A stretch of DNA of 64,000 nucleotides from Halobium salinum (lineage in GTDB: Archaea; Halobacteriota; Halobacteria; Halobacteriales; Haloferacaceae), in assembly GCF_026586625.1 (NCBI RefSeq), contig NZ_JAODIW010000006.1, positions 1,401,061 to 1,465,060 on the forward strand, written 5' to 3'. A model generated the notes under the pieces. It did no database searches and had not been told where the DNA came from. It saw only the letters and a program-made list of their open reading frames with translations. Positions 36,397 to 52,694 of this stretch are shown here, piece after piece. Position 1 is the stretch's first letter. Every line of letters starts with the position of its first letter. The translations under genes were made by a program, and so were the position numbers.

Positions 36397-36471
36397 GCTC
36401 GGTTGGTGTAGTCCGGCCAATCATTTCGGCCTTTCGAGCCGATGACACGGGTTCAAATCCCGTACCGAGCA
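36397..36471 (+). tRNA. tRNA-Glu (anticodon TTC), integration site
   Basis: Acceptor GCTCGGT with ACCGAGC, anticodon stem CGGCC-TTTCGAG-style arm giving anticodon TTC, and T arm ACGGG-TTCAAAT-CCCGT, with discriminator A. The 62 bases from 36410 to 36471 recur at 50203-50264, and integrase genes follow both copies. The tRNA therefore remains intact because the incoming element restores its 3' part. Confidence 0.95.
36410..36471 (+). repeat. Attachment repeat, left copy (in tRNA-Glu)
   Basis: The last 62 bases of tRNA-Glu, from the D loop to the discriminator, identical to 50203-50264. Bases outside differ on both sides (T versus G before, T versus C after). This is the signature of integrase-mediated insertion into a tRNA gene. 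Confidence 0.92.
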
Positions 36472-36625
36472 TCCCAAGTCGACGCCGTCTGGCATTTTTC
36501 GGTCGTGGTGTGAGCGAGAAAATGAACGCACCACAGGCCAATTCGATTCGAACGAACAGCCACCCCGACGCCGTACAGCGATTCGAGACGCGTCGGGCTT
36601 ACTACACATTCCCGGAGGGTAGCCC

Positions 36626-37735
36626 GTGAGCTACGACCCCGAGGACTTCGCTATTACGACGAAGAAGAGCCGGGAACTACTCACCGAGAAGGAACTCATT
36701 GACTACCGGAGTCACCGAGTTGACTTCCTCCGGTGGCTCATCCACCTCGGGAAGAACCCGGACATGGCCGTCGGGTACGGACGGGACACAATTCAAAACA
36801 CGGCGTACCGGACTGACCTCTTCAACCGGTGGGTATGGCAGGAGGAAGACGGCTACACCATGTCCCTCACGCACGCACAGGCTGACGAGTACATGGAGGA
36901 GCTGCTGTACTCCGATACTACCAGCACCCACAAGGCGAACACCCAGAAGTCGCTGAAGCGCTTCTACAAGTGGCTCTCCTTCGAGAAGAACGGCGACGAA
37001 TGGGAGCCGAGTCGGTCCTTCAGCGGCTCGAACGGGAGCAGTGGGCCTCGGGAGTTCCTGACCATTGAGGAGCGCAAGAAGGTCCGTGAAGCGGCGCTGC
37101 GGTACGGGTCGATTCCCTCCTACAGCAGCGTCTCCCCTGAAGAGCGAAGCGAGTGGAAAGCACACCTCGCCCAGCGCTTCGGGAAGCCGAAGTCCGAGGT
37201 CACCCCCGACGATTGGGACACCGCGAACAGCTGGAAGTTCACCTCGCTCGTGTGGGTGTCGCTCGACTGTGGCCTCCGGCCGGTTGAGGTCGAGCGGGCA
37301 AAGACCTCGTGGGTGGACACCGACAACGGCGTCCTCCGGATACCGAAGGAGGACTCTGCGAAGAACGAGGGAGACTGGGTCGTCGCACTTCAGGACCGTA
37401 CGGCCGACGCACTCGAACGGTGGATCGACGAGCGCGACCGGTACGCTGTGTACGACGGCATTGAGTCGCTGTGGCTGACGCGTGAAGCGAACCCGTATCA
37501 ATCGCAGAGTCTCCGCCGGCTACTGCTGAAGCTGTGCGACCTGGCCGAGATACGAACCGAGAACCGGAAGATGAGCTGGTACGCCCTTCGGCACTCGACC
37601 GGGACAGCGATGGCCCACGAGCGCGACCTCGCTGCGGCGAAGGCACAGCTCCGACACAAGAGCGAACAGACGACGATGAAGTACGACAACGTGCCTATCG
37701 AACAGCGACGGGAAGCCTTGGAGCGCATGGGATGA
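36626..37735 (+). CDS. int: Tyrosine integrase of element 1
   Basis: A 369-residue tyrosine recombinase. An N-terminal core-binding (SAM-like) domain spans about residues 20-125 and the catalytic domain about 145-369. Catalytic residues are Arg218 (CGLRPVEVE), Lys241, Arg322 (YALRHS), His344 (LRHKSEQTT) and nucleophile Tyr353. The usual His of HxxR is Tyr319 here. The GTG start has a good GGAGG seven bases upstream. It should recombine at the tRNA-Glu 3' end. A 373-residue relative lies after the second repeat. Stop overlaps the next gene in ATGA. Confidence 0.92.
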   Translation: MSYDPEDFAITTKKSRELLTEKELIDYRSHRVDFLRWLIHLGKNPDMAVGYGRDTIQNTAYRTDLFNRWVWQEEDGYTMSLTHAQADEYMEELLYSDTTSTHKANTQKSLKRFYKWLSFEKNGDEWEPSRSFSGSNGSSGPREFLTIEERKKVREAALRYGSIPSYSSVSPEERSEWKAHLAQRFGKPKSEVTPDDWDTANSWKFTSLVWVSLDCGLRPVEVERAKTSWVDTDNGVLRIPKEDSAKNEGDWVVALQDRTADALERWIDERDRYAVYDGIESLWLTREANPYQSQSLRRLLLKLCDLAEIRTENRKMSWYALRHSTGTAMAHERDLAAAKAQLRHKSEQTTMKYDNVPIEQRREALERMG

Positions 37736-38172
37736 ACGGAGACAACGAAGAGAACGAAGTCATGGTAGATAGTTGGCTGACTGGAACCGCTCTCATGAAG
37801 GCGCTCATTCGACTTCATCGGGAGATGGACGACGGGCCAGCACGGGACCTGATTTACGAGGAGATCCGCGCTACGGCAGTCGGATTCGTTGCTGTGCCTC
37901 GACCCAACGAGCGGCCCTCTGTTGATGCGTCCGTTGAGGAGATGATAGAGATACACGAGTCGATGTGGCATCAGCACAAGGATATCGCTCGGTACACGCG
38001 GCTCCGGATAGCCGAGGAGTTAGGTGCGTTCGAGCAGTCGGTCGAATCGGAATCGACTGACGACCGCTTCGACCCGTCCGGGCTGTCCGACGACGAGCTT
38101 CAGTACCTGCATGAAATGGGCGACACGCCCATTCGGTCTACTATCGAGGATTCTTTAGCTGAGGACGAGTGA
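37732..38172 (+). CDS. Integrase-coupled acidic protein, unknown function
   Basis: A 146-residue acidic, mostly helical protein. The ATG overlaps the integrase stop (ATGA at 37732-37735), so it is translated with the integrase. No domain is recognised. The central part (HESMWHQHKDIARYTRLRIA) looks like a helix pair, and the C-terminus is rich in Asp, Ser and Glu. Its position suggests a recombination accessory role, which is inference only. Confidence 0.7.
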   Translation: MNGDNEENEVMVDSWLTGTALMKALIRLHREMDDGPARDLIYEEIRATAVGFVAVPRPNERPSVDASVEEMIEIHESMWHQHKDIARYTRLRIAEELGAFEQSVESESTDDRFDPSGLSDDELQYLHEMGDTPIRSTIEDSLAEDE

Positions 38173-38254
38173 CGAACGGGTTGAACAAGCATCGTCCATC
38201 CCCGCTCAGTAGCGCCTCAATGTATTGGTCTCCCTTAATATTAGACGTCTGTCT

Positions 38255-38878
38255 TTATATCCTCTCTCCAGATATCTCTACAGACAATTCCGCTTTTTGT
38301 AACCCTTTAGCTTCACCGTATCCACTATTGTCCACAATGAGAACATAGTCTTCGGTATGAAGGTTCCCGGTTACGTTGGCATACTCAGTATCAAGTCGGC
38401 TTGCTTCAGGATAGTACTGAATCGATTGTCCCTGACGGAAGTATTCGAATTCATCACGGGAGGTCAACACAACGTCAACAGAGGGACCATTCCGAACGAC
38501 AACAGTATATGAGAGTTCAACACCAGATACGTCCAGTTCTGCATCCTCGGAAAAGAATAGCTCCCAATAACGGTAGTAGCCTTCTTCAATTTCGACATCT
38601 TCGTCCGCAGAGTAGAGTGGAAGCAACTCGTTGATATCTTGGAAATCTGTATCGGTTTCGTGCGGCGTAGTTTCCGCTGAGGTAGTTACTTCTGCGAGGT
38701 CATCAAGTGCAGAAGCGCCCTTCGGTACGCCTTGGCCTACATCGTCTGCACCACTTGCTACTTCATCCGCACCGCTTGCAGCTTCGTCAGCGCCCTTGAC
38801 TGCTACTTTGGCGCATCCAGAAATTGAGAGGAACCCGGCAGCAGTAGAGCTGAGAGCAGCACGACGAGTTAGCTTCAT
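38255..38878 (-). CDS. Predicted Tat lipoprotein of element 1
   Basis: A 207-residue protein with twin arginines (KLTRRAALSS), a hydrophobic stretch and lipobox SISGC (Cys22). It is followed by three near-repeats of ADEAASG/ADEVASG/ADDVGQG and then a beta-rich domain. It is probably anchored outside the membrane. Function unknown; surface exclusion or attachment is possible. The ATG shares one base with the stop of the upstream zinc-ribbon gene (TAATG), so the two form an operon. Confidence 0.72.
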   Translation of the reverse strand: MKLTRRAALSSTAAGFLSISGCAKVAVKGADEAASGADEVASGADDVGQGVPKGASALDDLAEVTTSAETTPHETDTDFQDINELLPLYSADEDVEIEEGYYRYWELFFSEDAELDVSGVELSYTVVVRNGPSVDVVLTSRDEFEYFRQGQSIQYYPEASRLDTEYANVTGNLHTEDYVLIVDNSGYGEAKGLQKAELSVEISGERI

Positions 38879-39282
38879 TATTGACCCCCTCGCGCGGCGT
38901 TTCGTCGCTTGTACATATAGTACGGTGAGATGATCAGCGAACCGATTCCAAGCGTCAGCGTAACGAAGATACCCGCAATCACCCATCTGCCTGAGCTAGG
39001 GTTCCATTCGGAGGTCTTTCGCATGAAGTTCATATCTCGCCAAATTGCAATTGGGTAAAGAAGAGCCAGCAGTAGCTGGAAGATGTAGGGATTAACACCA
39101 AGGGTGAGAATCGTAACTACTGCAAGGGGGAAGTACGCTGCCATCGCAGCGATAATATGCCACCAGTTTGACCGCAGGTTGGGTTCTTCAACATTCTTTA
39201 CTGACTTCAATTGATGTCCGCATCCTGGACACTCCAGTCCAGAACGTGAGACATCTGTACCGCATCCACGGCAATGAGCCAT
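38878..39282 (-). CDS. Zinc-ribbon membrane protein
   Basis: A 134-residue protein with an N-terminal zinc ribbon (HCRGCGTDVSRSGLECPGCG, four Cys) followed by three hydrophobic helices (about residues 41-60, 64-80 and 97-120). Zinc-ribbon plus few-helix proteins are common in archaea without assigned roles. A strong TATA-like element lies about 26 bases upstream. First gene of a two-gene operon with the lipoprotein. Confidence 0.75.
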   Translation of the reverse strand: MAHCRGCGTDVSRSGLECPGCGHQLKSVKNVEEPNLRSNWWHIIAAMAAYFPLAVVTILTLGVNPYIFQLLLALLYPIAIWRDMNFMRKTSEWNPSSGRWVIAGIFVTLTLGIGSLIISPYYMYKRRNAARGGQ

Positions 39283-39303
39283 GTGACCAAGTTCTCCGAA
39301 TTA

Positions 39304-39313
39304 CTTATAAAAC
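39304..39313 (-). promoter_or_regulatory. TATA-like element of the zinc-ribbon/lipoprotein operon
   Basis: Minus-strand GTTTTATAAG is centred about 26 bases before the ATG at 39282. Confidence 0.65.
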
Positions 39314-39419
39314 TTCTGTATGGTTACTTAATTTGATATTTTAGGAGCTTGAGTCCCAGTCGAATTGACAAATAATCGTAGCTTCGATGTTCGATAGGAA
39401 TCAACCGGATGGAAGACGA

Positions 39420-40155
39420 CGAGCGACCCCTTGGCTGTAGGCCGTTGACCGTGCCGAGATGCCGCTGACAGCGTAGATCGAGCTGGCAGAGAGCGGGTAC
39501 GCCGTTGACTCGCTCTGAGTGTCTTAGCACAGTAGGCTACGGAGATGATGTTCCCACTTCGGCGGGAGGGATTACTGGTGTGGAGCGAATACGTGTGCTT
39601 CGAGGCATTGAGCGGGGCGCGAGTACAGGTGCAGTCTCTCGGTGCCAGTCCCGTAGGTCGTCGAGAGTGGGCCGTAGTCCGTTTCTGACGCCATCCGAGT
39701 AAATCCGAGGGGGGACACTCGTTTCGAAGCCCTGTGGACCCGCTCGCGCTCCCTGATCCTCACCCTCGGCTTCAACTCCCATGACGATACAGGTGCAGAT
39801 GGCTGGTCACGTAGCGATATGTGACCCACACAGCCTTCGATCAATCCGGGTAGAGGTACGGCTCGTTCTCCCGACATTAACCACCACAAGACCCCTAGTG
39901 AAGGACTCGGGGTTAACCCCCACCTCAATGAAGTGAGTCACCCCGGTTGGAACATTCAGTTGAATAGTAAGTGTATATCATTGGGAACCTGGCACGAGAA
40001 TTTTCCGGATTTTCGGAGCGTCCCGAGAATATGCCTTCTCTCAGATTACTGGATTCTTCGGCACCTATTGACCTCTGGCGAACTACGAGAAGTGGTCGGA
40101 TGCAATCCATCATATCGATAAACTATCGCTCTACACACCTCAGATGCCGACATTT
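39420..40155. other. Stretch without a convincing gene
   Basis: About 740 bases between the zinc-ribbon operon and the replication region. Short open frames exist on the minus strand (for example 39572-39928) but they lack a promoter, good start context or a recognisable protein. Repeated CCGTTGAC-like words occur near 39440-39510. This could be part of a replication or partition region, but I see no clear iteron set. Confidence 0.4.
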
Positions 40156-40158
40156 CCA

Positions 40159-40201
40159 CTTTATATACTACCTGCGGGGGTCAGAGTGTATGGCCCCCCG
40201 C
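40159..40201 (+). promoter_or_regulatory. Rightward promoter with GC hairpin
   Basis: CTTTATATAC near 40159-40168 is a strong TATA-like box. Six bases further a perfect 7-bp stem (GCGGGGG at 40174-40180 with CCCCCGC at 40195-40201) covers the expected start of transcription. An ATG at 40190 at leaderless distance opens only an 11-codon frame. It directs transcription into the end of the primase-like gene. Confidence 0.5.
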
Positions 40202-40297
40202 CGTCTTGCACTTCTCGCATCATAACATAGGGGGAGAGCTTGTCCTACGATGGAGTAGAGACTCATCAGGAGTTACACCTCAAGGGAGGTGACAGAA

Positions 40298-40381
40298 ATG
40301 AAGAAATCTCCCGGAATCCACAGCATCAGAGGTTGGCTGGAATCTCAACGTGATCGTAGTCTGCAGGGAATGACCCAATGA
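40298..40381 (+). CDS. Putative 27-residue peptide with near-perfect Shine-Dalgarno
   Basis: A frame starting MKKSPGIHSIRGWLESQRDR, 27 residues, preceded by GGAGGTGA (40285-40292) five bases before the ATG. GGAGGTGA is fully complementary to the 3' end of 16S rRNA, and such sites are rare in this window. The peptide is basic. It overlaps the 3' end of the primase-like gene on the other strand, so transcription from the promoter at 40159 would also make antisense RNA. It may be a real peptide, a leader, or coincidence. Confidence 0.33.
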   Translation: MKKSPGIHSIRGWLESQRDRSLQGMTQ

Positions 40382-41957
40382 CGCTCTGAAACTGCTCTCG
40401 CGTTAATTCGGGGCTGAATTCGGCCCCAAACTGTGACTGGAACCATTCCCATGCTGGGTTCCAGCCATACAGAAGAAGTCGGCAAGCCACGCGCCATTTT
40501 TCCATGTGAGTCAATGTCTCGATTCCCTCCTGTTCTGCCTGCTGTTGGAGTTTGGCGGCCTTGGAACGTGGTGTCCGAATGGGCGGGATGTTGTCGCGGC
40601 GTTTTTTCGATCTCGTGGTCTCCGAGGCGCTTGTTGTCTCACTGGCGCCACCTCTGCCCACGTCGTATCCTTCGTCCACCAAATAGTCGAGAGCAGCTTG
40701 ACGACTCCCCTCTTTACCAGTAAGTGCGTGACCGGCGACGGTCGCCTGCCACGACTCTACGGTGAAGATGCGGGAGCTTCGACTCTGACCACCAATGATG
40801 ACTACCGGGTCACCGTTATGGAATTCCCATTTCTCGAAGTCTCGATCCGAGAGTTGGAGCGGGGCGTGTTCATCAGCCTTCGTGAACTCTCCGCCGTTGC
40901 AGCCTCGCGCCCCGTAGAAGTACGCCGGCACCATCGTTGCCGCATTTCGTTTTCCCCTCCGAGCGAACGCTCCACCCTTCACTTTCACAACTGCAACACT
41001 TCTGCCATTCCCGCTGGAGTGGGCGTACGGGGAAAATTCGTGGTAGTTGTACTGCGCCCACCTCGGAACATCAGTAGGATTAGTCGGGTGTTGTTCCTGC
41101 TCGATGAGGGGACAATCTATCACCCACTGAGTGTTACCGAACGACAGCACGGCCAGGTCACCGCCAAGTTTCTGTAGCAAGGCTGGTGCATTGGGTCCAA
41201 TTGAAGGGACACTCTCCGCGTTCTGCCGGCGCGGTGGACCGAACACACTCAACAGCACCTCAGCATATGTTGCCGGTCTTTTGGGGGTGCTGTTGGTCGC
41301 TTCCTGTATAATCCGGTCATGCTCCCACTCCGGTTCGACCTCGACCTTCGGAAAGCCTGTTTTCGGATGAAGAACACCAGGAAGTCGGAACTGACGCTTC
41401 CGAGAGTAAATACCGAGGTCAAACTCCGAACCGACCTCCTCCGAAAACCGTGCAGCTCGCTCTTTGAGTCGTTCTCGTGTTCGTTCAGTCGTGACGACAC
41501 GGGGGATATGAGCATGAATCGAGCGGTTTCCTGAGTAATAAAATGTGCAATCACCGACCATACATTCCAATTCGGTTTCTACAAACTCGGCGATATGCTG
41601 GATTGTTCTTTCAAATGGAATGTCTGGGAATGCGTCGCTTTCAACATGGATAGGGTATACCACCCGGTCGGCCTGTTCACATTCGTTTTGTAGAGCGGTT
41701 GCTATGCAGCTCGCATTTGCTACGGCATACGGATTCGTGAACGACTGATGGCGATCAAGTTGCTCGTCTGTGAGAAGGTAGATTGGGCTGGCTGTCTCGG
41801 CCTTCTCGGGGACTGGCGCGTCGACTGACCGAAGACTTGGAGCTTGGCGAGGTTTGTTGATTCCTTCGGGGAACCCGTATCGAACATATGGCGTATTCTT
41901 TGAGGGTGTATTAGTTATTGTATCAGTAGCAACATCAGAGTCGACGGTGTCAATCAT
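40326..41957 (-). CDS. Archaeo-eukaryotic primase-like replication protein
   Basis: A 543-residue protein with features of the archaeo-eukaryotic primase superfamily: YYSGNRSIHAHI near residue 140, resembling the S-G-x-G-x-H catalytic block, and RQFRLPGVLHPKTGFPKVEV near residue 189. An upstream acidic pair (YPIHVESDAF) may supply metal ligands. The C-terminal half is helical with a basic linker (TRSKKRRDNI). It is the most likely initiator or primase of the element. ATG 41957 is preferred to one at 42110, whose extra residues look non-coding. No helicase motif is visible. Confidence 0.72.
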   Translation of the reverse strand: MIDTVDSDVATDTITNTPSKNTPYVRYGFPEGINKPRQAPSLRSVDAPVPEKAETASPIYLLTDEQLDRHQSFTNPYAVANASCIATALQNECEQADRVVYPIHVESDAFPDIPFERTIQHIAEFVETELECMVGDCTFYYSGNRSIHAHIPRVVTTERTRERLKERAARFSEEVGSEFDLGIYSRKRQFRLPGVLHPKTGFPKVEVEPEWEHDRIIQEATNSTPKRPATYAEVLLSVFGPPRRQNAESVPSIGPNAPALLQKLGGDLAVLSFGNTQWVIDCPLIEQEQHPTNPTDVPRWAQYNYHEFSPYAHSSGNGRSVAVVKVKGGAFARRGKRNAATMVPAYFYGARGCNGGEFTKADEHAPLQLSDRDFEKWEFHNGDPVVIIGGQSRSSRIFTVESWQATVAGHALTGKEGSRQAALDYLVDEGYDVGRGGASETTSASETTRSKKRRDNIPPIRTPRSKAAKLQQQAEQEGIETLTHMEKWRVACRLLLYGWNPAWEWFQSQFGAEFSPELTREQFQSVIGSFPADYDHVEIPANL

Positions 41958-42145
41958 GGTCAGTATCGATGGAGGCGGATCATGTTCGGTCGGGATCAGT
42001 CGTTGAAGTGGTGCAGTCCTTGGGAAAACAGATTGTACAGACACTTTCCGATTGGAAAGTAGGAGCCAGCAACGTGAACCAGAGAGGGGGTTGTTGGATT
42101 GTGTCTTCAACCACCCCTCTGACCGCTACTGGGTCCTACCATTTC

Positions 42146-42355
42146 TTATGGTTTCACGATGAGTGCATGGCTGTCACTGTTTCGACCTGAACCAATGGAC
42201 ACACACCCCACCGGAATGGTTCCCGAAGCCCCGATAATCTTCAGAGTGGGGCTATCAATGATTTCATCAAGTGACTGTACAGTCCGTTCACGTCCTGTCT
42301 CGTCAAGGATGTTCAGTCGCTGGAGGTCAAAGTCAGAATGTTGAAGGATTTTCAT
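42146..42355 (-). CDS. Small protein upstream of the primase-like gene
   Basis: A 69-residue frame beginning MKILQHSDFDLQRLNILDET, with a plausible small alpha/beta pattern and ending SDSHALIVKP. No family recognised. A longer frame reaching 42523 exists, but the extra part looks less protein-like. Same strand and direction as the rest of the replication operon. Confidence 0.45.
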   Translation of the reverse strand: MKILQHSDFDLQRLNILDETGRERTVQSLDEIIDSPTLKIIGASGTIPVGCVSIGSGRNSDSHALIVKP

Positions 42356-42618
42356 GTATGTTACCTTCTTGAACGAGGTGACACTTGCACGGCTGGCGTC
42401 TCCCTCCAAGTGGATAGCTGTCTCTTTCTCATGCGGTTCCCGACGAGGGTCTTCGCAAAATTGCGGGCGGAGTGATTCGATAGCGTTGCAACTCTTTGCA
42501 TCATTATTTTCTTTAGCCAACATTCTTCAGCTACAGCGGTTGCTCTCAGGTCAATGAAACCAAACCCTCTGAGAAACCGCCTCACCCAACATAACAACGT
42601 AGCCTAAAATAAGTATTT

Positions 42619-42873
42619 CTATGACTGTATTGACGAGAATGTGGTCTGTGTGGTTGACACCTCGGCCTGTGGAATCACCGAGTCGTCGCCTTCCATGTAC
42701 CGCACGGCGTATCGAAGAGCCGTCGGAATATCCTCGAACCAGCGAACGTCCTTTTTGTATTCTTCGTAGACGTGGGAGTCTTGGTCGGGGTCGTAGTAGT
42801 GGGGATCGCTGAGAGTCCCACCTCCCCATCCCCGTATTTCATCACACCGAGTTTCGTCGTCGGACTGAGCCAC
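42619..42873 (-). CDS. Small acidic protein of element 1
   Basis: An 84-residue acidic protein (GTG start) with DPHYYDPDQDSHVYEEYKKD and RWFEDIPTALRYAVRYMEGD, which looks like a folded small domain. It starts inside the 51-residue gene upstream, overlapping by 32 bases. Function unknown. Confidence 0.55.
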   Translation of the reverse strand: MAQSDDETRCDEIRGWGGGTLSDPHYYDPDQDSHVYEEYKKDVRWFEDIPTALRYAVRYMEGDDSVIPQAEVSTTQTTFSSIQS

Positions 42874-42997
42874 ATCCCACCGCCCCGTGGTTCATCTGAG
42901 AGAGCGCCCGGTACAGTCGGACGAACCGGAACGGCCCATGCTTCGTCTCGACGTTCTCCGGCCAGCACTCCGGGGTATCCTCGGGGAGTTCCATCAT
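42842..42997 (-). CDS. Tiny coupled protein of element 1
   Basis: A 51-residue frame starting MMELPEDTPECWPENVETKH. The ATGA overlap with the DUF6884-like gene (42994-42997) suggests it is translated. The C-terminus is basic. Function unknown. Confidence 0.5.
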   Translation of the reverse strand: MMELPEDTPECWPENVETKHGPFRFVRLYRALSQMNHGAVGCGSVRRRNSV

Positions 42998-43557
42998 ACC
43001 TCCACCTCGTAGTTGTAGCGGTCGAGGCCGACCTGTCCGTTGTATTTCTCTCCGGGCTGTCGTAGATTCTCTCGCAGCGCCGTCTTCATCCACGATATCT
43101 GCTCGCCCATCCCCCCGAGGTTCGCCTGCTGGAACACTCCATTGACCGTGGGCGGGTCCTGAAACGCCGTGTCGCTGAGTTTCCCCCATCGGTCCTTGGT
43201 GTTCCGACACGCCTCTCGAATCGGCTTCACGTAGTCCTTCCCGGCGAGTACGTCAACCTCGTCGTACTCGAAGAGATCGGTGAATGCGCTCGTGACCGAC
43301 CCGAACGGCGTCCCGTGTTCGAACAGGGCGACTCGCTCGTCGTAGTCCATCTCCTTGATGTGCTTGTCGTAGGGTTCAACCTCCCGGTAGTGCGGGAGGA
43401 GGCCGTGCTTCGCCGAGGCGACGAACCACTTGCCGTTTGAAAACGTCTCGGCGTACTGCCGTTTGAACGCGAAGTACGGTGAAGTGTAGAGGTCTTCCGC
43501 CCGGCTCTCCCCGTCTCGCTTCTGCTTCCCACACCCAACGATGATTGCTCGCTTCAT
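42994..43557 (-). CDS. DUF6884-like protein (YaaA/TGT-associated fold)
   Basis: A 187-residue protein. Motifs AIIVGCGKQKRDGESRAEDL, FVASAKHGLLPHYREVEPYD and LAGKDYVKPIREA match the DUF6884 family, a relative of domains found with archaeosine/queuosine-type tRNA-guanine transglycosylases. Stand-alone members occur on plasmids and viruses, with unproven function, perhaps base or nucleotide chemistry. ATG 43557 starts right at the family N-terminus (MKRAIIVGCG). Confidence 0.72.
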   Translation of the reverse strand: MKRAIIVGCGKQKRDGESRAEDLYTSPYFAFKRQYAETFSNGKWFVASAKHGLLPHYREVEPYDKHIKEMDYDERVALFEHGTPFGSVTSAFTDLFEYDEVDVLAGKDYVKPIREACRNTKDRWGKLSDTAFQDPPTVNGVFQQANLGGMGEQISWMKTALRENLRQPGEKYNGQVGLDRYNYEVEV

Positions 43558-43613
43558 CACTTGTTCTAAATAAAAAAGGCCCCCCACCCCGGAGTGGGGT
43601 GAGGGGAAATGGG

Positions 43614-43811
43614 CTATGGAACTCGATACTTGAAGTTCGTCGTGTCGCTGACCGTCGAGTAGAATCCCGGTGGGTTGTCGCCGGGTCGAGGGTAGAATTC
43701 AAAGCCGTACTTCTCGGCCAACGCCGACAGCTCGTCGCTCGGTTCGTCCCACTCGCCTCGAAGGAGGACTACCATCAGCGATTTCGTTGCATTGAGGGTG
43801 TGAGCGTACAC
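43614..43811 (-). CDS. Small protein of element 1, unknown function
   Basis: A 65-residue frame (GTG start, or ATG at 43775) with LMVVLLRGEWDEPSDELSAL, AEKYGFEFYPRPGDNPPGFY and a basic end. It looks like a single small domain. Same operon direction as its neighbours. Confidence 0.5.
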   Translation of the reverse strand: MYAHTLNATKSLMVVLLRGEWDEPSDELSALAEKYGFEFYPRPGDNPPGFYSTVSDTTNFKYRVP

Positions 43812-43858
43812 GTGGGGGAGATGCGTCTAACCCGTTACTGAATCCCTCAATCGGGTCT

Positions 43859-43963
43859 TCACTCGTCGTCGTAAACTCGGAGAGGGTCGATTTCCTCATC
43901 GTCTTCATCTTCGTCTCGGTCGATTCCGGGCCAGTTCGCCGGTCGTGCTGTTGGGTGTCTCAT
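43859..43963 (-). CDS. 34-residue acidic peptide coupled to a zinc-finger gene
   Basis: Starts MRHPTARPANWPGIDRDEDE and ends in an acidic tail. The ATG overlaps the upstream stop (ATGA at 43960-43963), the main support for it being real. Confidence 0.45.
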   Translation of the reverse strand: MRHPTARPANWPGIDRDEDEDDEEIDPLRVYDDE

Positions 43964-44130
43964 TCGTCTCTCCTGTTCGGGGGTGTGTTCCCCTCGGCAG
44001 CTTCTTCGATCTGTTTCTTCCCACAGTCGAGACAGATGTATCGGGCGGTTCCATCGTCGTCTCGTCGGAAACAGAAGCAGTACCCACCGCACTTCTCTCG
44101 GGCCGACTCACCACAGACGGTGCAGGGCAT
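43960..44130 (-). CDS. 56-residue zinc-finger protein
   Basis: MPCTVCGESAREKCGGYCFC, then RYICLDCGKKQIEEAAEGN: seven cysteines, including CxxC pairs that can bind one or two zincs. The ATG overlaps the stop of the 141-residue gene by one base (TAATG). Small zinc fingers of this type are typical of haloarchaeal plasmids and viruses and may be regulators. Confidence 0.68.
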   Translation of the reverse strand: MPCTVCGESAREKCGGYCFCFRRDDDGTARYICLDCGKKQIEEAAEGNTPPNRRDE

Positions 44131-44555
44131 TACGCCCCTCCGAAGGCCGCCAGCCCCATCTGCTGCTGCCCCTCAATGGCTGCATCCACATCCACGTCAA
44201 CCGCGTCGAGGATATCCACCATCGGGTTGCGAATCAGCACGTCCCGCATTCGGGGTACGTCCAGGGAGATTTTATCTCGAATTGGGGCGAGCTGGGCGGG
44301 GCGCTCGTACCCAATCGTATCGACTCTAAAGGCGCGGTCCTCAGCCTCCAGCGTCACACCCTTGAGGTAGAGTCGGTTCACCGTGTTCCCTTCTCCGAAG
44401 TTCACGTCGTTGAGGAACGTGTTCCCGAAGAACCCCGCTCGGGGTGAGGCTCCCTTCGGGGTGCCGTCGGTCCACTCGTACTCGTCGAGTTCCTTTCCGA
44501 GTCCGCCCGGAATCCCGATACGGGAGAAGTCCGGGTTTGAGGCGTCGACTTCCAT
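44130..44555 (-). CDS. First gene of the element 1 replication operon, unknown function
   Basis: A 141-residue protein with DFSRIGIPGGLGKELDEYEW, NRLYLKGVTLEAEDRAFRVD and a Gly/Ala/Gln-rich C-terminus. It may be an all-beta domain; no family is recognised. A TATA-like GGTAATAGC lies about 30 bases before the ATG. It heads a leftward series of coupled small genes leading to the primase-like gene. Confidence 0.65.
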   Translation of the reverse strand: MEVDASNPDFSRIGIPGGLGKELDEYEWTDGTPKGASPRAGFFGNTFLNDVNFGEGNTVNRLYLKGVTLEAEDRAFRVDTIGYERPAQLAPIRDKISLDVPRMRDVLIRNPMVDILDAVDVDVDAAIEGQQQMGLAAFGGA

Positions 44556-44771
44556 CGCGCCGTCGCGGCTGATCTTCCGGCTATTACCTTCGGCGCCTCT
44601 CAGAGAGCTGCTTCGAACACCGCACTCTGAACGCCCTTCGTGCCAAGAAACGCCCCGTGATTTCGACCGTTACGGAGGTGCGGAAACAGGATGAATGGAG
44701 ACGGCTTTTCTCGACAGGTTGGCCCACCAAGGGACAGCTCGTCAATCGACTCTTAGAAGAGAAATACAGAG

Positions 44772-47700
44772 TCAGAACACTTCGAGGTAGTCCTCGATGA
44801 CCGCCCTCTCGTCCTGGGTGAGGTCGAACAGGTCGTACACCACTTGGTCGATTTCGGCTTCCAGTTCCTCGATGTCGGTCTCCTCAACGGTCCGACGGTC
44901 GGACTCCAAGGCGTCAATGAGTTGCTTCACGCCGGTCGAGGACTCGGGGATGGGTATAGTCTGCTCTTCACCCTTCTTCATGTTTCGACCGTTGACGGCG
45001 GCATGAACGTACCTCGAACGGAGTTTCTTTTCTTCTCGATCACCCTTGTCCATCTGTTGGTGGGTGATTTCGTCAGAGCGACCGGCAGTTACTGCGAATC
45101 GACCATCTGATTTCTCTTGGATGTCCGCATTGACTGGATACCGCCGTGTTTGCCACTCGTAGTCTATGTAGCCGAGATCACCGTCAAAGTCTCCGAGATA
45201 TGCTTCAGGGAATCGTTCCATTCTGTTTTTGACATCCAGAGTATTCAGAATCGGTCGAACTCTGTTTTGTAGCTTCTCCGCCGACAAAGTGGTCACATCG
45301 GTATACGGAAGTTCATTGAGATATCGAGCCTGGTATCGGTATTTTCCCCCAAGAAGCATTGGAGCTATGTGTTTTAGGTAGAAGTCAAGCGGCTTTGAGT
45401 TCACCAGACATGCTACACTTTCAGTATTCGGTCGCAGGTCTTCATTCAGGTAGATTCCGTATGGGGTTTTGAAATACCAATGTCCTTCTTCATCAATCAT
45501 GAACCGAGCATTGCTCGCCATGTCCGCATTGATGATCTTCGGAAGTCGGAATTTTTCTAAATTCTGTGGACGACCAAACTCCCACCAGACATCGCTATTC
45601 TCCCACCGGCCACTCTCTCTTCCTCGAAGAGTGTCCTCATGTTCAGTCAGGAACTTCCAGGTTTTAGGGTATGATTCTTTTAGTTCCATTTCACCATACA
45701 AACGGGCACTAAATTCACCACTATCATCTTTTTCGATGGAGTATGGGAAGAGAACGTGTTGACCTGCCCAATCACCCCGCCACCGCTGAACATCGATTCC
45801 TTGCAGCCACGGATGGAGCAAATCTGTCTCGATTTCATACTCTTTTGACTCACCGGTCGGTACAATCCGTACCGTGTCCCCACGATCGTGTGACTCAATT
45901 CGATCAGCGTCCTGGGGAACGACCACATAGGTCTTGTTGGAACTCGTCTGTGTTCCTGAAGATATCGAATCAGTTACATCCCCTAAGGTAGCATCACGTT
46001 CCTGTTTGAGTTTCTCGAAGACACCAAGCTCCTCGGGTGGCATCAACGACCAGAATTGCTTATTAAGCTTTGACTGAGGGAAGTCAAAGACATCAATAAA
46101 TGCGTCGCTGTACCCAGGGTCATCATTATGTTTTCGGACGCTCAGAACAACTTCTTCATCCAGTTGATTCTGACTATGTTCACCAATATTTGATTTCACT
46201 CTTACACATCGGATGTTGTTTTCTTGCCGAGCGGACTCATCCGGCTCGTCGCGTGCAAATAAAATAACAGGAAGGTTCGCTGCATCTTCGAATACCCCAG
46301 AGTCTCGGAAATCATACACCTCCTCGATAGCTGCTTCGTCTTGTAACACTTCTCGGATACCTTCACCGTAGTCCGTCAGCAAAAACTGATTCGACGTAAT
46401 GTATCCGAGTTTCCCGGTACCCTCTTTCAGAAGCTGCAGTCCCCGCTCGTAGAATGTGCAATAGATATCATAATTGCCAGTCGTGGAGTCGTAGAGCTGG
46501 TTTAGTACCTTCTTCTGCTCGTCAGGTAGATACTGAACTCGAACATAAGGAGGATTGCCGACGACATAGTCGTACTCCATGTAGTTCTTCACGACGAGCG
46601 CGAGGACGCTGTCTTCAAACATCTTGAACAGCCGCCCGTCTCCGTGGTCCTCACGAAGATATCGAACCGTACCCAGCACGTCGTTCACGTACGGCTCGAA
46701 GAAGTCCTCCACCCCCTCGTACTCGCGCGTTGTGTACCGATTGATGCCCGTTTCGAGACCTCCTGTGTATTCCCACATTCCTTCGTGCATGTGGTACTTC
46801 ACCACGTCGAGAACACCCTGCAACGCGGCGAAGTATTCCCCGAAGTTTCGGACTCCCGCGTTCACCTTCGCGGTGTCGTACTTCGGCATTCGAACTCGCT
46901 GAACGAGGAACCCGTCTTCGATATCCGACTCGTCTACCTCGTCCTCGTCGACCTCAATGGGAAGAGGCACCGGAATCATTACGTCTTGGTTGTCCTCGGT
47001 AATCGAGTCGAACGTCATCTGCGTCTTCCCCTCGTCACCGAGGTTGATACCGGTCAGCTCGCGCTCGTTACGAAGTGAGTCCGTACGGAAGATGGGAAGC
47101 CGCCGAATGGTGAAGTCCTCCCTGCCCCGCTTAGCTTGCTTATACTCAGGGAGAATCGTCACCATGAACCGAATCTGCGCCATCAGGACGGCGAACGGAT
47201 GGATGTCAAGTCCAACGATATGCGGGCGGGTACAAAGTTCGGAGAGGTGCTTTGCCCAATCGGGGTCGTCGTTGTACCGGCGTACGTCTTCGAGATAACG
47301 GTTTACCGCTTCAACGAGGAACGTACCCGAGCCACAGGAGGGATCGATGATACGCTCCCCGGAGACACCGACGTTGTAGTCCACGCCGTCCATAATGTAG
47401 TCGATCACCGGCTGTGGAGTATAGAACTCTCCCAGGGCTTTGCGTGTCTCGGGGTCGAAGTAGCGCTGGTAGAGGTTCCCAAGTGGGTCCCCTTCGATTC
47501 GCGAGAAGTCGAACTTCAGCACGGCGAACGAGACGTTTGCGATAGCACGGCTGAAGCGTTCCCGAGTAGCAGGGGTGACACGAGATACGTCTGTCCCTTC
47601 CTCAGCGACCTCTCGGAATCGGTTGTAGGGGTTCTCGTGCTGACTGGCGGTCTGCTCACCGTAGCCGTCGGTCCACCAGATGAAGATGTCGTCCTCAAAG

Positions 47701-48650
47701 AGGCTCTCGACGAGCTGGTTCCGCATATCTTCGATCATGCCGTTCGCCGCGATAGGGTATGCGTCGAGAGTAATGGTTCCGCTGAAGCCACCAAGTTCGT
47801 CAAAGTATCGTCGGAGACCCTTCTCGGTGGGGAAGAAATCGTGGTCGTCTGTGGCTTTCGCCAGTAGTAGCCGAGCGAGAAGGGCGTGCCCGGACTCCAG
47901 GCAGAACATGAAGTCACGGAGAGACTGCTTCCCGTCAATAAACGAGTCCCACGAATCAGGAGTCTCGTCGGGTTCGCTCGCGTAGCTCGCCTCCCAGAAG
48001 TCGTACGCTCCTTCGACGAACTTCGCGTGCTGCTCGTCGCGTAGCTCCTCCAGTAGGTCCATCATCGCCGTGACGAGGCTGGCGAAGGGACTACCCTTCT
48101 CTAAGCGGAAGGTGTCGAAAAAGTGGTCTCGACCAAGTTCACCATCGAGTTCGACTTCATCGAGACCATCGAGGTACCGGCTGACACTCTCCGGGTCTGT
48201 AACGTCCCAGGCCGGTTTCTGAAGTGCCGACCCGATATCAGCCGCGTCACTCTCCGTCGCCTCTTCGAGTGAGATTGTGAGGAGACGCGCGCGGTTCTCT
48301 CGTCGGTAGAGCCGAAGTTCCTCTCCGTTCGTCAGGACACCGTAGTCGGCCTTCAGCTCGTCAACGTAGTGAAACAGCTGGTCCTCGTGTGGAGCGAGAT
48401 CTCGGCCGGTGGTCTTGAACTCGTAGACGGCGGTGACCGTTTCATTTGAGTCAAGCGTCACATAGTCGGGGCGTCGATTGTCAGGGAGAGTGAACTCACT
48501 TCGGAGGTCGGTACCTGCGCCCTTGTAACCAAGAAGAGTGTAGAAGTCCTCGTTGAGGAAGGCGTTCTCAACGTCCTTCTCGCTCATGTCGTCATCAAGT
48601 CGAGCCGCGACTCCATGAAGTGAATCGAGAATGGCCGATGTGTCGGGCAT
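44772..48650 (-). CDS. Type IIG (Eco57I-like) restriction-modification enzyme
   Basis: A 1292-residue single-chain enzyme. N-terminal nuclease: RRPDYVTLDSN then AVYEFKTTGRDL (PD...ExK, about residues 60-78). A helical linker is followed by an N6-adenine methyltransferase with motif I IIDPSCGSGTFLVEAV (about residue 435) and motif IV VVGNPPYVRVQYL (about 698). The C-terminus is a target-recognition region with TaqI-like sequence. One protein should both methylate and cut a specific site, so it protects or stabilises the element. ATG 48650 is supported by a TATA-like element about 27 bases upstream. Its DNA target cannot be read from sequence. Confidence 0.9.
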   Translation of the reverse strand: MPDTSAILDSLHGVAARLDDDMSEKDVENAFLNEDFYTLLGYKGAGTDLRSEFTLPDNRRPDYVTLDSNETVTAVYEFKTTGRDLAPHEDQLFHYVDELKADYGVLTNGEELRLYRRENRARLLTISLEEATESDAADIGSALQKPAWDVTDPESVSRYLDGLDEVELDGELGRDHFFDTFRLEKGSPFASLVTAMMDLLEELRDEQHAKFVEGAYDFWEASYASEPDETPDSWDSFIDGKQSLRDFMFCLESGHALLARLLLAKATDDHDFFPTEKGLRRYFDELGGFSGTITLDAYPIAANGMIEDMRNQLVESLFEDDIFIWWTDGYGEQTASQHENPYNRFREVAEEGTDVSRVTPATRERFSRAIANVSFAVLKFDFSRIEGDPLGNLYQRYFDPETRKALGEFYTPQPVIDYIMDGVDYNVGVSGERIIDPSCGSGTFLVEAVNRYLEDVRRYNDDPDWAKHLSELCTRPHIVGLDIHPFAVLMAQIRFMVTILPEYKQAKRGREDFTIRRLPIFRTDSLRNERELTGINLGDEGKTQMTFDSITEDNQDVMIPVPLPIEVDEDEVDESDIEDGFLVQRVRMPKYDTAKVNAGVRNFGEYFAALQGVLDVVKYHMHEGMWEYTGGLETGINRYTTREYEGVEDFFEPYVNDVLGTVRYLREDHGDGRLFKMFEDSVLALVVKNYMEYDYVVGNPPYVRVQYLPDEQKKVLNQLYDSTTGNYDIYCTFYERGLQLLKEGTGKLGYITSNQFLLTDYGEGIREVLQDEAAIEEVYDFRDSGVFEDAANLPVILFARDEPDESARQENNIRCVRVKSNIGEHSQNQLDEEVVLSVRKHNDDPGYSDAFIDVFDFPQSKLNKQFWSLMPPEELGVFEKLKQERDATLGDVTDSISSGTQTSSNKTYVVVPQDADRIESHDRGDTVRIVPTGESKEYEIETDLLHPWLQGIDVQRWRGDWAGQHVLFPYSIEKDDSGEFSARLYGEMELKESYPKTWKFLTEHEDTLRGRESGRWENSDVWWEFGRPQNLEKFRLPKIINADMASNARFMIDEEGHWYFKTPYGIYLNEDLRPNTESVACLVNSKPLDFYLKHIAPMLLGGKYRYQARYLNELPYTDVTTLSAEKLQNRVRPILNTLDVKNRMERFPEAYLGDFDGDLGYIDYEWQTRRYPVNADIQEKSDGRFAVTAGRSDEITHQQMDKGDREEKKLRSRYVHAAVNGRNMKKGEEQTIPIPESSTGVKQLIDALESDRRTVEETDIEELEAEIDQVVYDLFDLTQDERAVIEDYLEVF

Positions 48651-48672
48651 ATTTCGTCCCGAGACAGTCATC

Positions 48673-48682
48673 CAATAAAAGT
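48673..48682 (-). promoter_or_regulatory. TATA-like element of the restriction-modification gene
   Basis: Minus-strand ACTTTTATTG is centred about 27 bases before ATG 48650. It argues against the in-frame ATGs at 48671 and 48746. Confidence 0.6.
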
Positions 48683-48696
48683 CATGTGTTGGGTAC

Positions 48697-48924
48697 TCAT
48701 TCGAGAGGTGGACGGAGGTCGCGTCGTCGGAAATCTCCAGTTCCACCCTCGTCGAACTTGATGCGGAACAGCGCTCCGTCGCGGTCGTCTCCTGTGGTCC
48801 TCGATGCGTCGTCCTGTATGACTTTGACCACAGTTCCGTGTCTCCCGTGGTGCAAGTCGTGGTCGGGATCGGCTTCGTCGGGAATATCGACTCGAACCCG
48901 GTCCCCCTTGGCGATACGGTTCAT
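48697..48924 (-). CDS. Small SH3-like barrel protein
   Basis: A 75-residue protein, IAKGDRVRVDIPDEADPDHD then GRHGTVVKVIQDDA and FRIKFDEGGTGDFRRRDLRP. The pattern resembles small SH3/KOW-like barrels that bind nucleic acid or proteins. It ends 46 bases before the restriction-modification start and reads the same way. Possibly a controller or accessory protein; inference only. Confidence 0.6.
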   Translation of the reverse strand: MNRIAKGDRVRVDIPDEADPDHDLHHGRHGTVVKVIQDDASRTTGDDRDGALFRIKFDEGGTGDFRRRDLRPPLE

Positions 48925-49041
48925 GGACAGAGAGTAACGACCCTACTGCTTCACTCCTCTCGTCTGCGTACAGAGCTGAGGTTGACCTCGGCACCTCAAT
49001 GAAGTTCCACCATCACCGATCAGGGGATGAGTGGAGCGTCC

Positions 49042-50016
49042 TCAGTATTCGGACAGGATCTCCGACTTCTTGTTTTCGAATTCATCGCTACTTATCACAC
49101 CATCCGACTGTAATTCGCTCAGCTCTCTCAGTTTGTCAGCCGAGCTTTGGTTCAAACTATCCGGTTCATCGTCTTCGTGGTCACTTTCCATGACTCCGGC
49201 TGTCTTCCGTATAACTACACCTCGCTTAGCTTGCCGTCTCTTCTTGAATGTGTCATGTTCCATCGCGACTCCGAAAGGTGCAAGAAGAGTCATCAGGAGA
49301 CCGATACTGACGGTCTGCCACACGAATCCTCTCGTGTCCGACTGCGGATGGAAGTTACAATGCGGGCAACGTTCGATATTTCTATCCACTTGTTCCATGC
49401 ACTTCCGACAAACGAATATCGTCTCCAATTCGGGACCGTCGCTTCGGGGGTCATATTCGACTTCTGGTTCAAATTCCTCGATCTCCCCGCCGTTGAACTC
49501 GCGGCTGTAAGCTTCGATATGATGGCTTCCTCGCTCAACGTCTTCCCAAGTGGCCCGTATTACAGGAATCGAGTATTCACCATCGGCAGTCTGTATCGAG
49601 ATTCGGCTAACTCCTGCGACTCCGATCCAGTTCGACCCGAGTAAGGATGCTTTGTACGAACTACCCTGAATGACTCCATGAGGAATGCTTACCACACGGT
49701 CGGTTTCTTCCTCGCCGATCAGGAGAATCACTCGTTTGTCCGTGATTATCAAAATCGTTCCTCGGGACTCACTTGGTGAATAGTCCGGGATGTTCGGTGG
49801 ATCACCTCGGACGCCTTCGCTCCGATTAAAGAAAACAAACTGAACGCATTCGTCACGAGAGAGTACAGCAACAGGTGGGGTCGAGTTTAGAAACCCAAGT
49901 GTGTTGTCTAATATCCCACGCTTTACCGAAGAATGCTGCGCTGAATTTGCTATTTTCTCCGCCCGTTCTCCGAACTGCTTCTTTGCTTCTCCCATATCTA
50001 ACCTACCAGTACCCAT
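49042..50016 (-). CDS. PH-like, zinc-ribbon, SHOCT-domain protein
   Basis: A 324-residue protein with a mosaic layout. A PH-like beta domain (about residues 80-165, GTILIITDKRVILLIGEEET) is followed by a zinc ribbon (FVCRKCMEQVDRNIERCPHC), one hydrophobic helix (about residues 232-250) and a C-terminal SHOCT motif (KLRELSELQSDGVISSDEFE). SHOCT domains often mediate oligomerisation at membranes. The last gene of element 1 before the right repeat. An alternative ATG is at 49995. Function unknown. Confidence 0.7.
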   Translation of the reverse strand: MGTGRLDMGEAKKQFGERAEKIANSAQHSSVKRGILDNTLGFLNSTPPVAVLSRDECVQFVFFNRSEGVRGDPPNIPDYSPSESRGTILIITDKRVILLIGEEETDRVVSIPHGVIQGSSYKASLLGSNWIGVAGVSRISIQTADGEYSIPVIRATWEDVERGSHHIEAYSREFNGGEIEEFEPEVEYDPRSDGPELETIFVCRKCMEQVDRNIERCPHCNFHPQSDTRGFVWQTVSIGLLMTLLAPFGVAMEHDTFKKRRQAKRGVVIRKTAGVMESDHEDDEPDSLNQSSADKLRELSELQSDGVISSDEFENKKSEILSEY

Positions 50017-50202
50017 ACATTCATTTTCACAAGTACTTTTCGTCGATGAATATGTACCGAGTCTAAGTGTGGCTCAACGTCACTTGGCTGGGGGCCAACA
50101 TAGTGGGTTTTAAGTACCAACGAGTTGTCTAATGAGTATCCACGGCTGAAAGAAGCCAGATTTCGGCGCTCTACGCTCGACATACCGCGCCCTCGGCGCG
50201 GG

Positions 50203-50264
50203 AGTCCGGCCAATCATTTCGGCCTTTCGAGCCGATGACACGGGTTCAAATCCCGTACCGAGCA
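50203..50264 (+). repeat. Attachment repeat, second copy
   Basis: Identical 62 bases to 36410-36471 (3' part of tRNA-Glu), without the 5' half of the tRNA. It forms the right end of element 1 and the left end of element 2. Confidence 0.92.
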
Positions 50265-50371
50265 CTTTCACGGCTTCTACGCGCTGTTTCCGGCCTACTC
50301 AGGAGTTTCACCAAATGCACCCGTTAGGCCGATGCGATAACTCGGAAGTACCACCCCGACGCCGTCCCGTG

Positions 50372-50381
50372 GTTTTAAAAG
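50372..50381 (+). promoter_or_regulatory. TATA-like element of the second integrase
   Basis: GTTTTAAAAG lies about 55 bases before the integrase ATG, implying a leader of about 30 bases with a GGAG motif. Confidence 0.45.
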
Positions 50382-50431
50382 AGTCAGGCCGAAAGAATTC
50401 TAGTTCTAGCCATACGGAGACGCGATAACCT

Positions 50432-51553
50432 ATGGCAAACCTACCAGAAGACATCAAGCTCGTACCAAAACCCGCAGAAAAACAGTTGAACCAGCGCCAG
50501 CTACTCGACTACGAAACACACCGAGAAACCTACCTCGAATGGCTCTACCACCTCGGGAAGAACCCCGATCAAGCCGAGGGCTACAGCCAATCTACAGTCA
50601 AACGTGACGCCTACCGACTCGACCAGTTCTACCGCTGGGTCTGGAGCCAAGAAGACGGCTACACCACCTCAATTACACACACGCACGCGGGCAACTATAT
50701 CGATCACTTGGCGTACGGTGAGAACAGCAACTCCCACAAATCCAAGTGCCTGAAGGCGTTGAAACGGTACTTCAAATGGCGGCACCACGAACGCAGCAGC
50801 GAGCTCTGGAAGCCGAAACGCAGCTTCTCCTCTGAACCTACGCAGCCACAGAACTACCTCACTCTCGAAGAGCGTCAAAAGGTACGTGAAGCCGCATTAG
50901 AGTACGGCAGCATACCGGCCTACAACGATCTGAGTCCTGAGGAGCGTGATCGGTGGAAGGCGTATATCGCCCAGCGGTTGGATAAGCCGAAGACCCAGGT
51001 CAAACCCAGTGATTGGCAGCGGATGAACAGCTGGAAAATCCCGAGCATGGTAATGGTCTCACTCGATGTAGGCCTACGACCAGTCGAAGTCGAACGAGCA
51101 GTCGTCCAATGGGTTGACGTTGAGAATGCCGTGCTCCGGATTCCGAAGCAGGACTCCGCGAAGAACCGGGACAACTGGACACCCGCATTACGCAGAGACA
51201 CCGCGAAAATATTGAGCCGCTGGCTGGATGAACGCAGCCAGTACAGCAAATACAACGACCGAGATGAGTTGTGGTTGACCCGGTATAGCAACCCGTACGG
51301 CAGCAGCTCGCTCAAACGGATACTCGAAAGCCTGTGTACTGAGGCCGGTATTCCACACCGGAACGACGACTCCACAAGCAGCGAACGAGGAATGTCCTGG
51401 TACGCCATCCGCCACAGCGTCGGCACCTACATGCGCCACGCAGAAGACCTCAAAGCCGCCAAAGAACAACTTCGACACAAATCAGAAATAACCACAATGA
51501 AATACGACCATGCACCCGTCGAAGAACGCAGAAACGCACTCGACCACATGTAA
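50432..51553 (+). CDS. int: Tyrosine integrase of element 2
   Basis: A 373-residue tyrosine recombinase related along its whole length to the one at 36626. Shared blocks include HLGKNPD, QEDGYT, VREAALEYGSIPAY and GLRPVEVERA. Catalytic residues are Arg of GLRPVEVE, Arg of WYAIRHSVGT, His of LRHKSEITT and Tyr of MKYDH. As in the first, Tyr stands where the HxxR His is usual. Using the same tRNA-Glu repeat explains the tandem array. Confidence 0.92.
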   Translation: MANLPEDIKLVPKPAEKQLNQRQLLDYETHRETYLEWLYHLGKNPDQAEGYSQSTVKRDAYRLDQFYRWVWSQEDGYTTSITHTHAGNYIDHLAYGENSNSHKSKCLKALKRYFKWRHHERSSELWKPKRSFSSEPTQPQNYLTLEERQKVREAALEYGSIPAYNDLSPEERDRWKAYIAQRLDKPKTQVKPSDWQRMNSWKIPSMVMVSLDVGLRPVEVERAVVQWVDVENAVLRIPKQDSAKNRDNWTPALRRDTAKILSRWLDERSQYSKYNDRDELWLTRYSNPYGSSSLKRILESLCTEAGIPHRNDDSTSSERGMSWYAIRHSVGTYMRHAEDLKAAKEQLRHKSEITTMKYDHAPVEERRNALDHM

Positions 51554-51564
51554 TTCGGTTTTTC

Positions 51565-52218
51565 CTATTGCCAGTCGATTTTGAATCTCACCTGATCAGA
51601 GATAGTTCCAGTCTTCTGGAGTGCATCTCCTAATTTGCTCTGACGGATTTGCTTCCCTGTGGTGGCTCTCACTTTTAGTCGATATACCACCGATCCAGAC
51701 GTATTCATATTTGTTGATTGTAATGCAAGTAGTAATGCGGTTTCAAGGTTAATTGAGAATGATCCGGGGCTTCGACGCCACTTTTTCACGCTCCATTTTC
51801 TTTCCTCCTTTGCAGTTATTTTCTTCCTTGCCGTTTTCCCAATATGGCCGCTACCACCCACTTGTGCGAATGCTGCGTTTAGGAAGATACCAAAAATTGG
51901 GTTCACGTTCCCTGCAGCGAATTTAGCAGTTTCTATTACCAACGGTTTCCCCCACTTTGGAACCAGTTGCTTGAGACGACTTGAGCCGCCTCTAAGTACA
52001 TTCGAATCGCGTATCTTAAACTCGGTCTCAGCAGAACTGATTCCGCTTACCTCCTCCACAGTTATCGATAAATCCCGAAGAACCGGAGAGTAGTACCCAC
52101 CTTTCTTATCATCAAATGAATAGATAGTACATACTTGCAGATGATTCCCGTAGACACCAGCCATCGGTTTGTTCAGATAACCGACCGACAACGCCAGTCC
52201 TACATCGTTATCTACCAC
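51565..52218 (-). CDS. Unknown protein of element 2
   Basis: About 217 residues (GTG 52218; ATG 52164 is an alternative). A beta-rich N-terminal half (AGVYGNHLQVCTIYSFDDKK) and a basic middle (KTARKKITAKEERKWSVKKW) flank a short hydrophobic stretch (NPIFGIFLNAAFA). No family recognised. Convergent with the integrase and next to the 140-residue gene upstream on the same strand. Confidence 0.6.
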   Translation of the reverse strand: MVDNDVGLALSVGYLNKPMAGVYGNHLQVCTIYSFDDKKGGYYSPVLRDLSITVEEVSGISSAETEFKIRDSNVLRGGSSRLKQLVPKWGKPLVIETAKFAAGNVNPIFGIFLNAAFAQVGGSGHIGKTARKKITAKEERKWSVKKWRRSPGSFSINLETALLLALQSTNMNTSGSVVYRLKVRATTGKQIRQSKLGDALQKTGTISDQVRFKIDWQ

Positions 52219-52241
52219 TCCTGACCGTTCTCGAGAATAGA

Positions 52242-52664
52242 TCACTCTAATATATTTTCTAGCTCGTAATCTCGTGCCTCTAACACCACATCGCCATCCC
52301 ACTCATCTACTACACAATCCGGCATGAGTTCATGGTTTGTATAAAACTCGGTTAGCAAAAGATTCCTGTCTCGCAGGTAACCAACTGTCTCTTGCATACC
52401 CTTTTCTGGGAAGAAGACCTGAACGTTTAGAGAGAGGTCCTCTGACCCATCTCTTCCAACTACATCGTATAGAAAATCGACTCTATGCGCTGATTCATTG
52501 GTTTCCCGATCGTAGAGGCAGATAGCAGAATTATTTGTCTCCTCACGGCTTTCGACATATGACTCCGTCTCATCCAAAATGGCTTCAAATTGGGCTGACT
52601 CACGGGCTTCTCTAATATACTCCGTTGGATCGTCTACCTTCTCAGCCCGCATATCAACCGCCAT
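52242..52664 (-). CDS. Unknown acidic protein of element 2
   Basis: A 140-residue acidic protein with SAQFEAILDETESYVESREE, SAHRVDFLYDVVGRDGSEDL and SLNVQVFFPEKGMQETVGYL. It looks like a folded alpha/beta domain; no family recognised. Strong TATA-like element at leaderless distance. It probably heads an operon with the gene at 51565. Confidence 0.68.
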   Translation of the reverse strand: MAVDMRAEKVDDPTEYIREARESAQFEAILDETESYVESREETNNSAICLYDRETNESAHRVDFLYDVVGRDGSEDLSLNVQVFFPEKGMQETVGYLRDRNLLLTEFYTNHELMPDCVVDEWDGDVVLEARDYELENILE

Positions 52665-52684
52665 AAGTACTACTGGACATGCAA

Positions 52685-52694
52685 ACTTTTATAC
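52685..52694 (-). promoter_or_regulatory. TATA-like element for the gene at 52242-52664
   Basis: Minus-strand GTATAAAAGT is centred about 26 bases before ATG 52664. Confidence 0.65.

Follow-up and report, generated by a model that had tools for sequence, protein, structure and literature searches.

Layout of the tRNA-Glu locus

The window analyzed here, a 64,000-nt stretch of the genome of the haloarchaeon Halobium salinum, contains an intact tRNA-Glu(TTC) gene, a second copy of the 3′ part of this gene, and two tyrosine integrase genes (int1 and int2), one following each copy (Table 1). The initial annotation had described a 62-base identical repeat derived from the tRNA gene, a related tyrosine integrase within about 170 bases of each copy, and a second element running past the window. 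All of its coordinates hold: the repeat (36410–36471 and 50203–50264) is identical at 62 of 62 bp, and int1 and int2, whose products share 55% identity, start 154 bp after the tRNA gene and 167 bp after the second copy, respectively. Moreover, the search for a third repeat to the right in the full genome, proposed there as a check, yielded an identical copy of 46 bp on the same 1.63-Mb contig as the window, which confirms that element 2 extends beyond it. This third copy corresponds to positions 30–75 of the tRNA.

The three copies (75, 62, and 46 bp) are identical wherever they overlap, a feature that would fit recent insertion or later conversion alike. Searched in the window, a 40-base stretch of this repeat gave two exact matches, against 0 expected from shuffled sequence, and self-comparison detected no further repeats above the threshold within the 82 kb besides the three tRNA copies. 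The array, 82,077 bp in total, lies entirely within the 1.63-Mb contig, without N runs; the assembly consists of 14 contigs. As for a tRNA-targeting integrative element, a direct repeat of the tRNA 3′ end is present opposite the intact tRNA. Before the tRNA gene, on its left side, the G+C content is about 0.68; it is 0.45–0.58 over the region of 38–118 kb and rises from about 0.52 to 0.67 at the third copy; these boundaries coincide with the tRNA gene and the third tail.

Table 1 Features of the tRNA-Glu(TTC) locus, in window coordinates (positions above 64,000 lie outside the window, where genes were predicted with a simple, purpose-written program based on codon usage)
Feature	Position	Strand	Evidence or remark
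Intact tRNA-Glu(TTC), attL of the array	36397–36471	+	ARAGORN; 100% repeats
Element 1, small integrative element with restriction-modification cargo	36472–50264		13,793 bp
35-codon ORF between tRNA and int1, overlapping the int1 start codon	36521–36628	+	
int1, tyrosine integrase of element 1, 369 aa	36626–37735	+	Pfam PF00589 Phage_integrase, E 3.6e-16
Weakly primase-like protein, 543 aa	40326–41957	−	PHROG primase, E 4.6e-5 only
Type IIG restriction-modification enzyme, 1,324 aa	44772–48746	−	Eco57I, N6_Mtase, HSDR_N, TaqI_C; REase_MTase_IIG
SHOCT-like protein at the right end of element 1	49042–49995	−	PF09851 just below cut-off
62-bp tRNA-Glu 3′ copy, right end of element 1 and left end of element 2	50203–50264	+	100% repeats
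Element 2, in-window part	50265–64000		Whole element 68,284 bp (by subtraction), to 118548
int2, tyrosine integrase of element 2, 373 aa	50432–51553	+	Pfam PF00589 Phage_integrase, E 1.1e-12
Type II CBASS operon (TIR-SAVED effector, E1-E2-JAB fusion, CD-NTase)	55689–60400	−	Element 2
VirB4	68546–70507	+	Element 2, outside window
VirD4/TraG	71466–73400	+	Element 2, outside window
Second tyrosine recombinase of element 2	87183–88418	−	Outside window (L008)
Orc1/Cdc6	99233–100294	+	Element 2, outside window
Third tRNA-Glu 3′ copy, 46 bp, identical	118503–118548 (G000:C11:1519563–1519608)		Outside window

Integrases and gene content of the two elements

Both int1 and int2 are full length, uninterrupted, and located next to an att site, as in the classical, non-suicidal type of integration. 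In a tree of 34 integrases, they fall into separate supported clades. Every other member of the int1 clade is located at tRNA-Glu(TTC). int2 pairs with a Saliphagus integrase at tRNA-Glu(TTC), beside integrases at tRNA-His. Because the clades differ, element 2 did not arise as a second copy of element 1; judged by the tree, the array is a joining of two integrase lineages with a common target, not a duplication. The wider integrase family also occurs at tRNA-Glu(CTC), -His, -Gly, -Leu, and -Pro, and int1-like integrases (E up to 1e-80) were found in 43 of the 119 genomes of the family. No extra copy of int1 or int2 was found elsewhere in the assembly. No relative of the VirD4-like protein occurs in the Saliphagus genome that encodes the integrase closest to int2; this int2-like integrase is thus not from the same element.

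Among viruses, the integrases nearest to int1 are of the HSTV-2 kind (51% identity) and the HF2 kind (40%), aligned over nearly the full length. In HSTV-2 (L146), a tRNA-like 3′ tail can be recognized by eye just upstream of the integrase gene (around 1310–1395), for which ARAGORN makes no call; this tail is likely the viral attP. Assignment of the integrases to the SNJ2 type was unsupported: the phage search gave HSTV-2- and HF2-like matches and no SNJ2 record, and the collection may lack SNJ2. The second tyrosine recombinase of element 2 is too distant from int1 to be retrieved with it, and no repeats were found to flank its gene. Separately, in two other genomes (L104 in G058 and L105 in G020), two convergent integrase genes, about 35% identical, adjoin tRNA-Glu(TTC) with their ends almost touching.

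Two small features accompany int1 and the tail of element 1. One is the 35-codon ORF, similar versions of which (31–35 codons, with a SIRxNxHPxAVxR-like core) precede the integrase gene in six relatives of the int1 kind. A codon comparison counted 44 synonymous and 113 non-synonymous differences and did not show strong purifying selection, so that the reality of the ORF rests on its constant length, start, and overlap with the integrase gene. It is possibly a helper or a directionality factor. Another is a perfect hairpin, CCGCGCC CTC GGCGCGG, at 50184–50201, directly 5′ of the tail; L095, L096, and L097 have hairpins with the CGCGCC/GGCGCG core in the corresponding position, with different closing pairs.

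The main cargo gene of element 1 encodes the type IIG enzyme. No transfer gene or clear replication gene was found in this element, the sole hint being the weak primase-like match. A confident primase identity for that protein was rejected, since the PHROG match is weak and nothing was matched in Pfam or PDB. In relatives, the constant parts of this kind of element are the integrase and the type IIG enzyme, the latter occurring with 58–79% identity in four of the five single elements at this tRNA-Glu, and also near related integrases at tRNA-His (G093) and tRNA-Leu (G074). From these comparisons, element 1 is best described as one representative of a small, recurring type of element that usually carries a type IIG restriction-modification enzyme of about 1,300 residues.

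Element 2 carries a five-gene transfer-like block (67240–73825) that includes the VirB4 and VirD4/TraG genes, together with Orc1/Cdc6 genes, a Cdc48-like AAA protein, the second tyrosine recombinase, a P450, and defence genes, among them two CBASS-type modules. The block, with one or two nearby genes, recurs with its content kept in five other genomes, where it adjoins related integrases at tRNA-His, tRNA-Thr (three), and tRNA-Gly. Therefore, element 2 is a member of an ICE-like element family of haloarchaea. For the related VirB4 elements, the 17–38 kb examined per locus contained no tRNA tail, so their far ends lie elsewhere. No relaxase was recognized among the proteins of element 2 scanned against Pfam, and no virion-protein assignment was obtained among the tested proteins beyond a weak terminase-like match of the VirB4/VirD4 ATPases. 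We infer from its gene content that element 2 is ICE-like and spreads in a conjugation-like manner.

Several other genes of element 2 deserve mention. A QueC-like gene and a PfkB/nucleoside deoxyribosyltransferase fusion (60622–62422, minus strand) lie directly upstream of the type II CBASS operon. A TGT-like gene, a second CD-NTase gene, and a small protein gene lie outside the window at 90821–93352 (L012), 30 kb from the QueC gene; they look like a type IV CBASS core, in which the small protein may be a membrane effector, and a core of this appearance also occurs in a related element of G072. A cytochrome P450 gene is located beside a FilR1-type regulator gene as cargo at 81940–83283 (outside the window, L008). 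The 578-aa protein encoded at 105561–107297 has no relative in PDB. The presence of a fusexin (fsx1) in element 2, which comparable elements in the literature had led us to consider, was rejected: HAP2-GCS1 (PF10699) stayed below the cut-off, and the weak matches lie outside the element.

The same tRNA gene in related genomes

As no other genome of the genus was found, 119 genomes at the family level were used as relatives. The flank markers were the gene to the left of the tRNA gene and a gene block starting 3.1 kb to the right of the third tail; the first 3.1 kb beyond this tail is not conserved in relatives, and the genes beyond it are. The right-flank block was found downstream of tRNA-Glu in nine genomes from four other genera, and the left gene was in place in all seven genomes checked, with 70–75% protein identity. 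The comparison with empty tRNA-Glu sites that had been suggested initially could thus be made: in four genomes (G041, G009, G079, and G043), the chromosomal genes are conserved and no integrase gene lies between the flanks. Four others (G033, G021, G006, and G035) carry one element of 8.5–11.5 kb ending in a tRNA tail, and G059 has only a short degraded tail. In G078, a 10.8-kb element with a 68-bp tail is present, and the right flank is not conserved. A 3.6-kb remnant at tRNA-Glu in G090 (L100), consisting of an imperfect tail and an N-terminal integrase fragment only, represents a decayed element. Among the matches listed for the 119 family genomes, from which short or diverged tails could escape, two tails at tRNA-Glu were found only in the genome of the window.

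The tails also provide a clue to the crossover site. In the occupied relatives, they match the tRNA of their own genome to the last base. The tails of the element 1 kind start at tRNA positions 8, 13, 14, 19, 20, and 20, that of element 2 starts at position 30, and all of them reach the exact 3′ end. The anticodon stem is formed by positions 30–34 with 42–46, and the loop by positions 35–41; every tail therefore contains positions 30–46, the complete anticodon stem-loop. As the start of the shortest tail coincides with the first base of this stem, strand exchange by the integrases probably takes place in the anticodon stem-loop, which is among the three sub-sites known to be used in tRNA integration (PMC8371274, a review). 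Two exact-pattern searches covering both circles found no attP of excised circles in viral contigs.

Formation of the array and comparison with known systems

We conclude with high confidence that two different integrative elements are arranged in tandem at one haloarchaeal tRNA-Glu(TTC) gene, in the order of the tRNA gene, int1 with the rest of element 1, the 62-bp tail, int2 with the rest of element 2, and the 46-bp tail. Each circular element would have an attP that is a copy of the tRNA 3′ part, located beside its own tyrosine integrase gene. Recombination with the 3′ half of the tRNA gene would restore a whole tRNA gene on the left and leave a tail on the right, and the intact tRNA gene or a tail could then act as attB for the next element. 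Three circles would be possible (13.8, 68.3, and 82.1 kb), and element 1 would serve as the carrier of a restriction-modification enzyme. The earlier proposal of two integrated units in one tRNA gene is borne out by the third repeat and by the conserved flanks in relatives with no or one element; that the two were inserted successively is the simplest reading.

The identity of the three copies where they overlap would also be expected if one composite 82-kb element, formed elsewhere either from two circles that fused or through accretion in a previous host, had been integrated once with its internal tRNA tail kept, and conjugative transfer of CIME-ICE tandems has been described in bacteria (PMC5704250). 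However, this origin needs an additional step, elements of the element 1 kind stand alone at this tRNA in five genomes, and blocks like that of element 2 lie beside other tRNAs, so that we give it only a small chance. Also unlikely is the idea that the array acts as a unit in which element 1, with no transfer genes seen, is carried in cis by element 2 as an 82-kb composite, and in which the conserved 35-codon ORF encodes a recombination directionality factor of a type new to archaea that chooses the circle.

The relatedness of int1 and int2, each located after a tRNA copy, might alternatively suggest one element with an internal duplication of the integrase gene and att, in which the middle repeat separates nothing. 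This reading is strongly disfavoured by the integrase tree and the lone elements of relatives, to the point of being highly improbable: the two integrases are only 55% identical and belong to different clades, there are no other repeats within the 82 kb, and in relatives a tail of this very sort terminates the lone elements that resemble element 1. A further alternative would be an artefact of assembly, or else an ordinary genomic island in which tRNA fragments occur by chance. The division of the genome into 14 contigs might raise this concern, but no matches are expected by chance, the array lies within one 1.63-Mb contig without N runs, and both ends agree with the G+C shifts and with the empty sites in relatives; its probability is negligible.

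One tRNA-Glu site in the family repeatedly gathers defence genes, namely the type IIG enzyme in the small elements and the CBASS modules in the large element. With three att copies and two integrases, the array lends itself to asking which element each integrase excises, and whether a conjugation-like element can take a small neighbour along.

In layout and gene content, the closest described counterpart of element 2 is, by analogy, genomic island 3 of Haloquadratum walsbyi HBSQ001, a 52-kb island with an integrase gene adjacent to tRNA-His, a 43-nt repeat of the tRNA 3′ end at its far end, homologues of Cdc6 and Cdc48, type IV secretion genes, and a second integrase gene (PMC3119063). That island is a single element in tRNA-His, whereas element 2 is in tRNA-Glu, behind a second, different element. 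In other haloarchaea, related integrases have been reported beside tRNA-Glu, with truncated tRNA copies 5–48 kb downstream (PMC3119063). Element 2 also resembles the fusexin-bearing integrated elements of haloarchaea, which exceed 50 kb and encode an XerC/D-type recombinase, VirB4, and TraG/TraD/VirD4 (PMC9259645), in its size and its integrase/VirB4/VirD4 make-up, but no fusexin was found in this genome (Pfam HAP2-GCS1). The integrases of HSTV-2, HRTV-7, HCTV-6, and HF1/HF2 resemble int1, but these are tailed viruses.

In bacteria, the accretion of ICEs, IMEs, and CIMEs stacks elements with a common specificity and distant integrases in one tRNA gene, and cis-mobilisation has been described (PMC5704250). 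The Halobium array is like these tandems in its stacking, but it is archaeal. In archaea, too, several elements are known to share one integration site, which has been proposed as a driver of module exchange (PMC8371274, PMC6563490); those tandem cases concern other phyla and element types, whereas the present one is a haloarchaeal pair. Since site re-use and tandem accretion at tRNA genes are already known in both archaea and bacteria, the array is of a known kind and is well bounded: it provides a fully bounded haloarchaeal example, with empty and single-element relatives as controls, of a known route of genome island growth.
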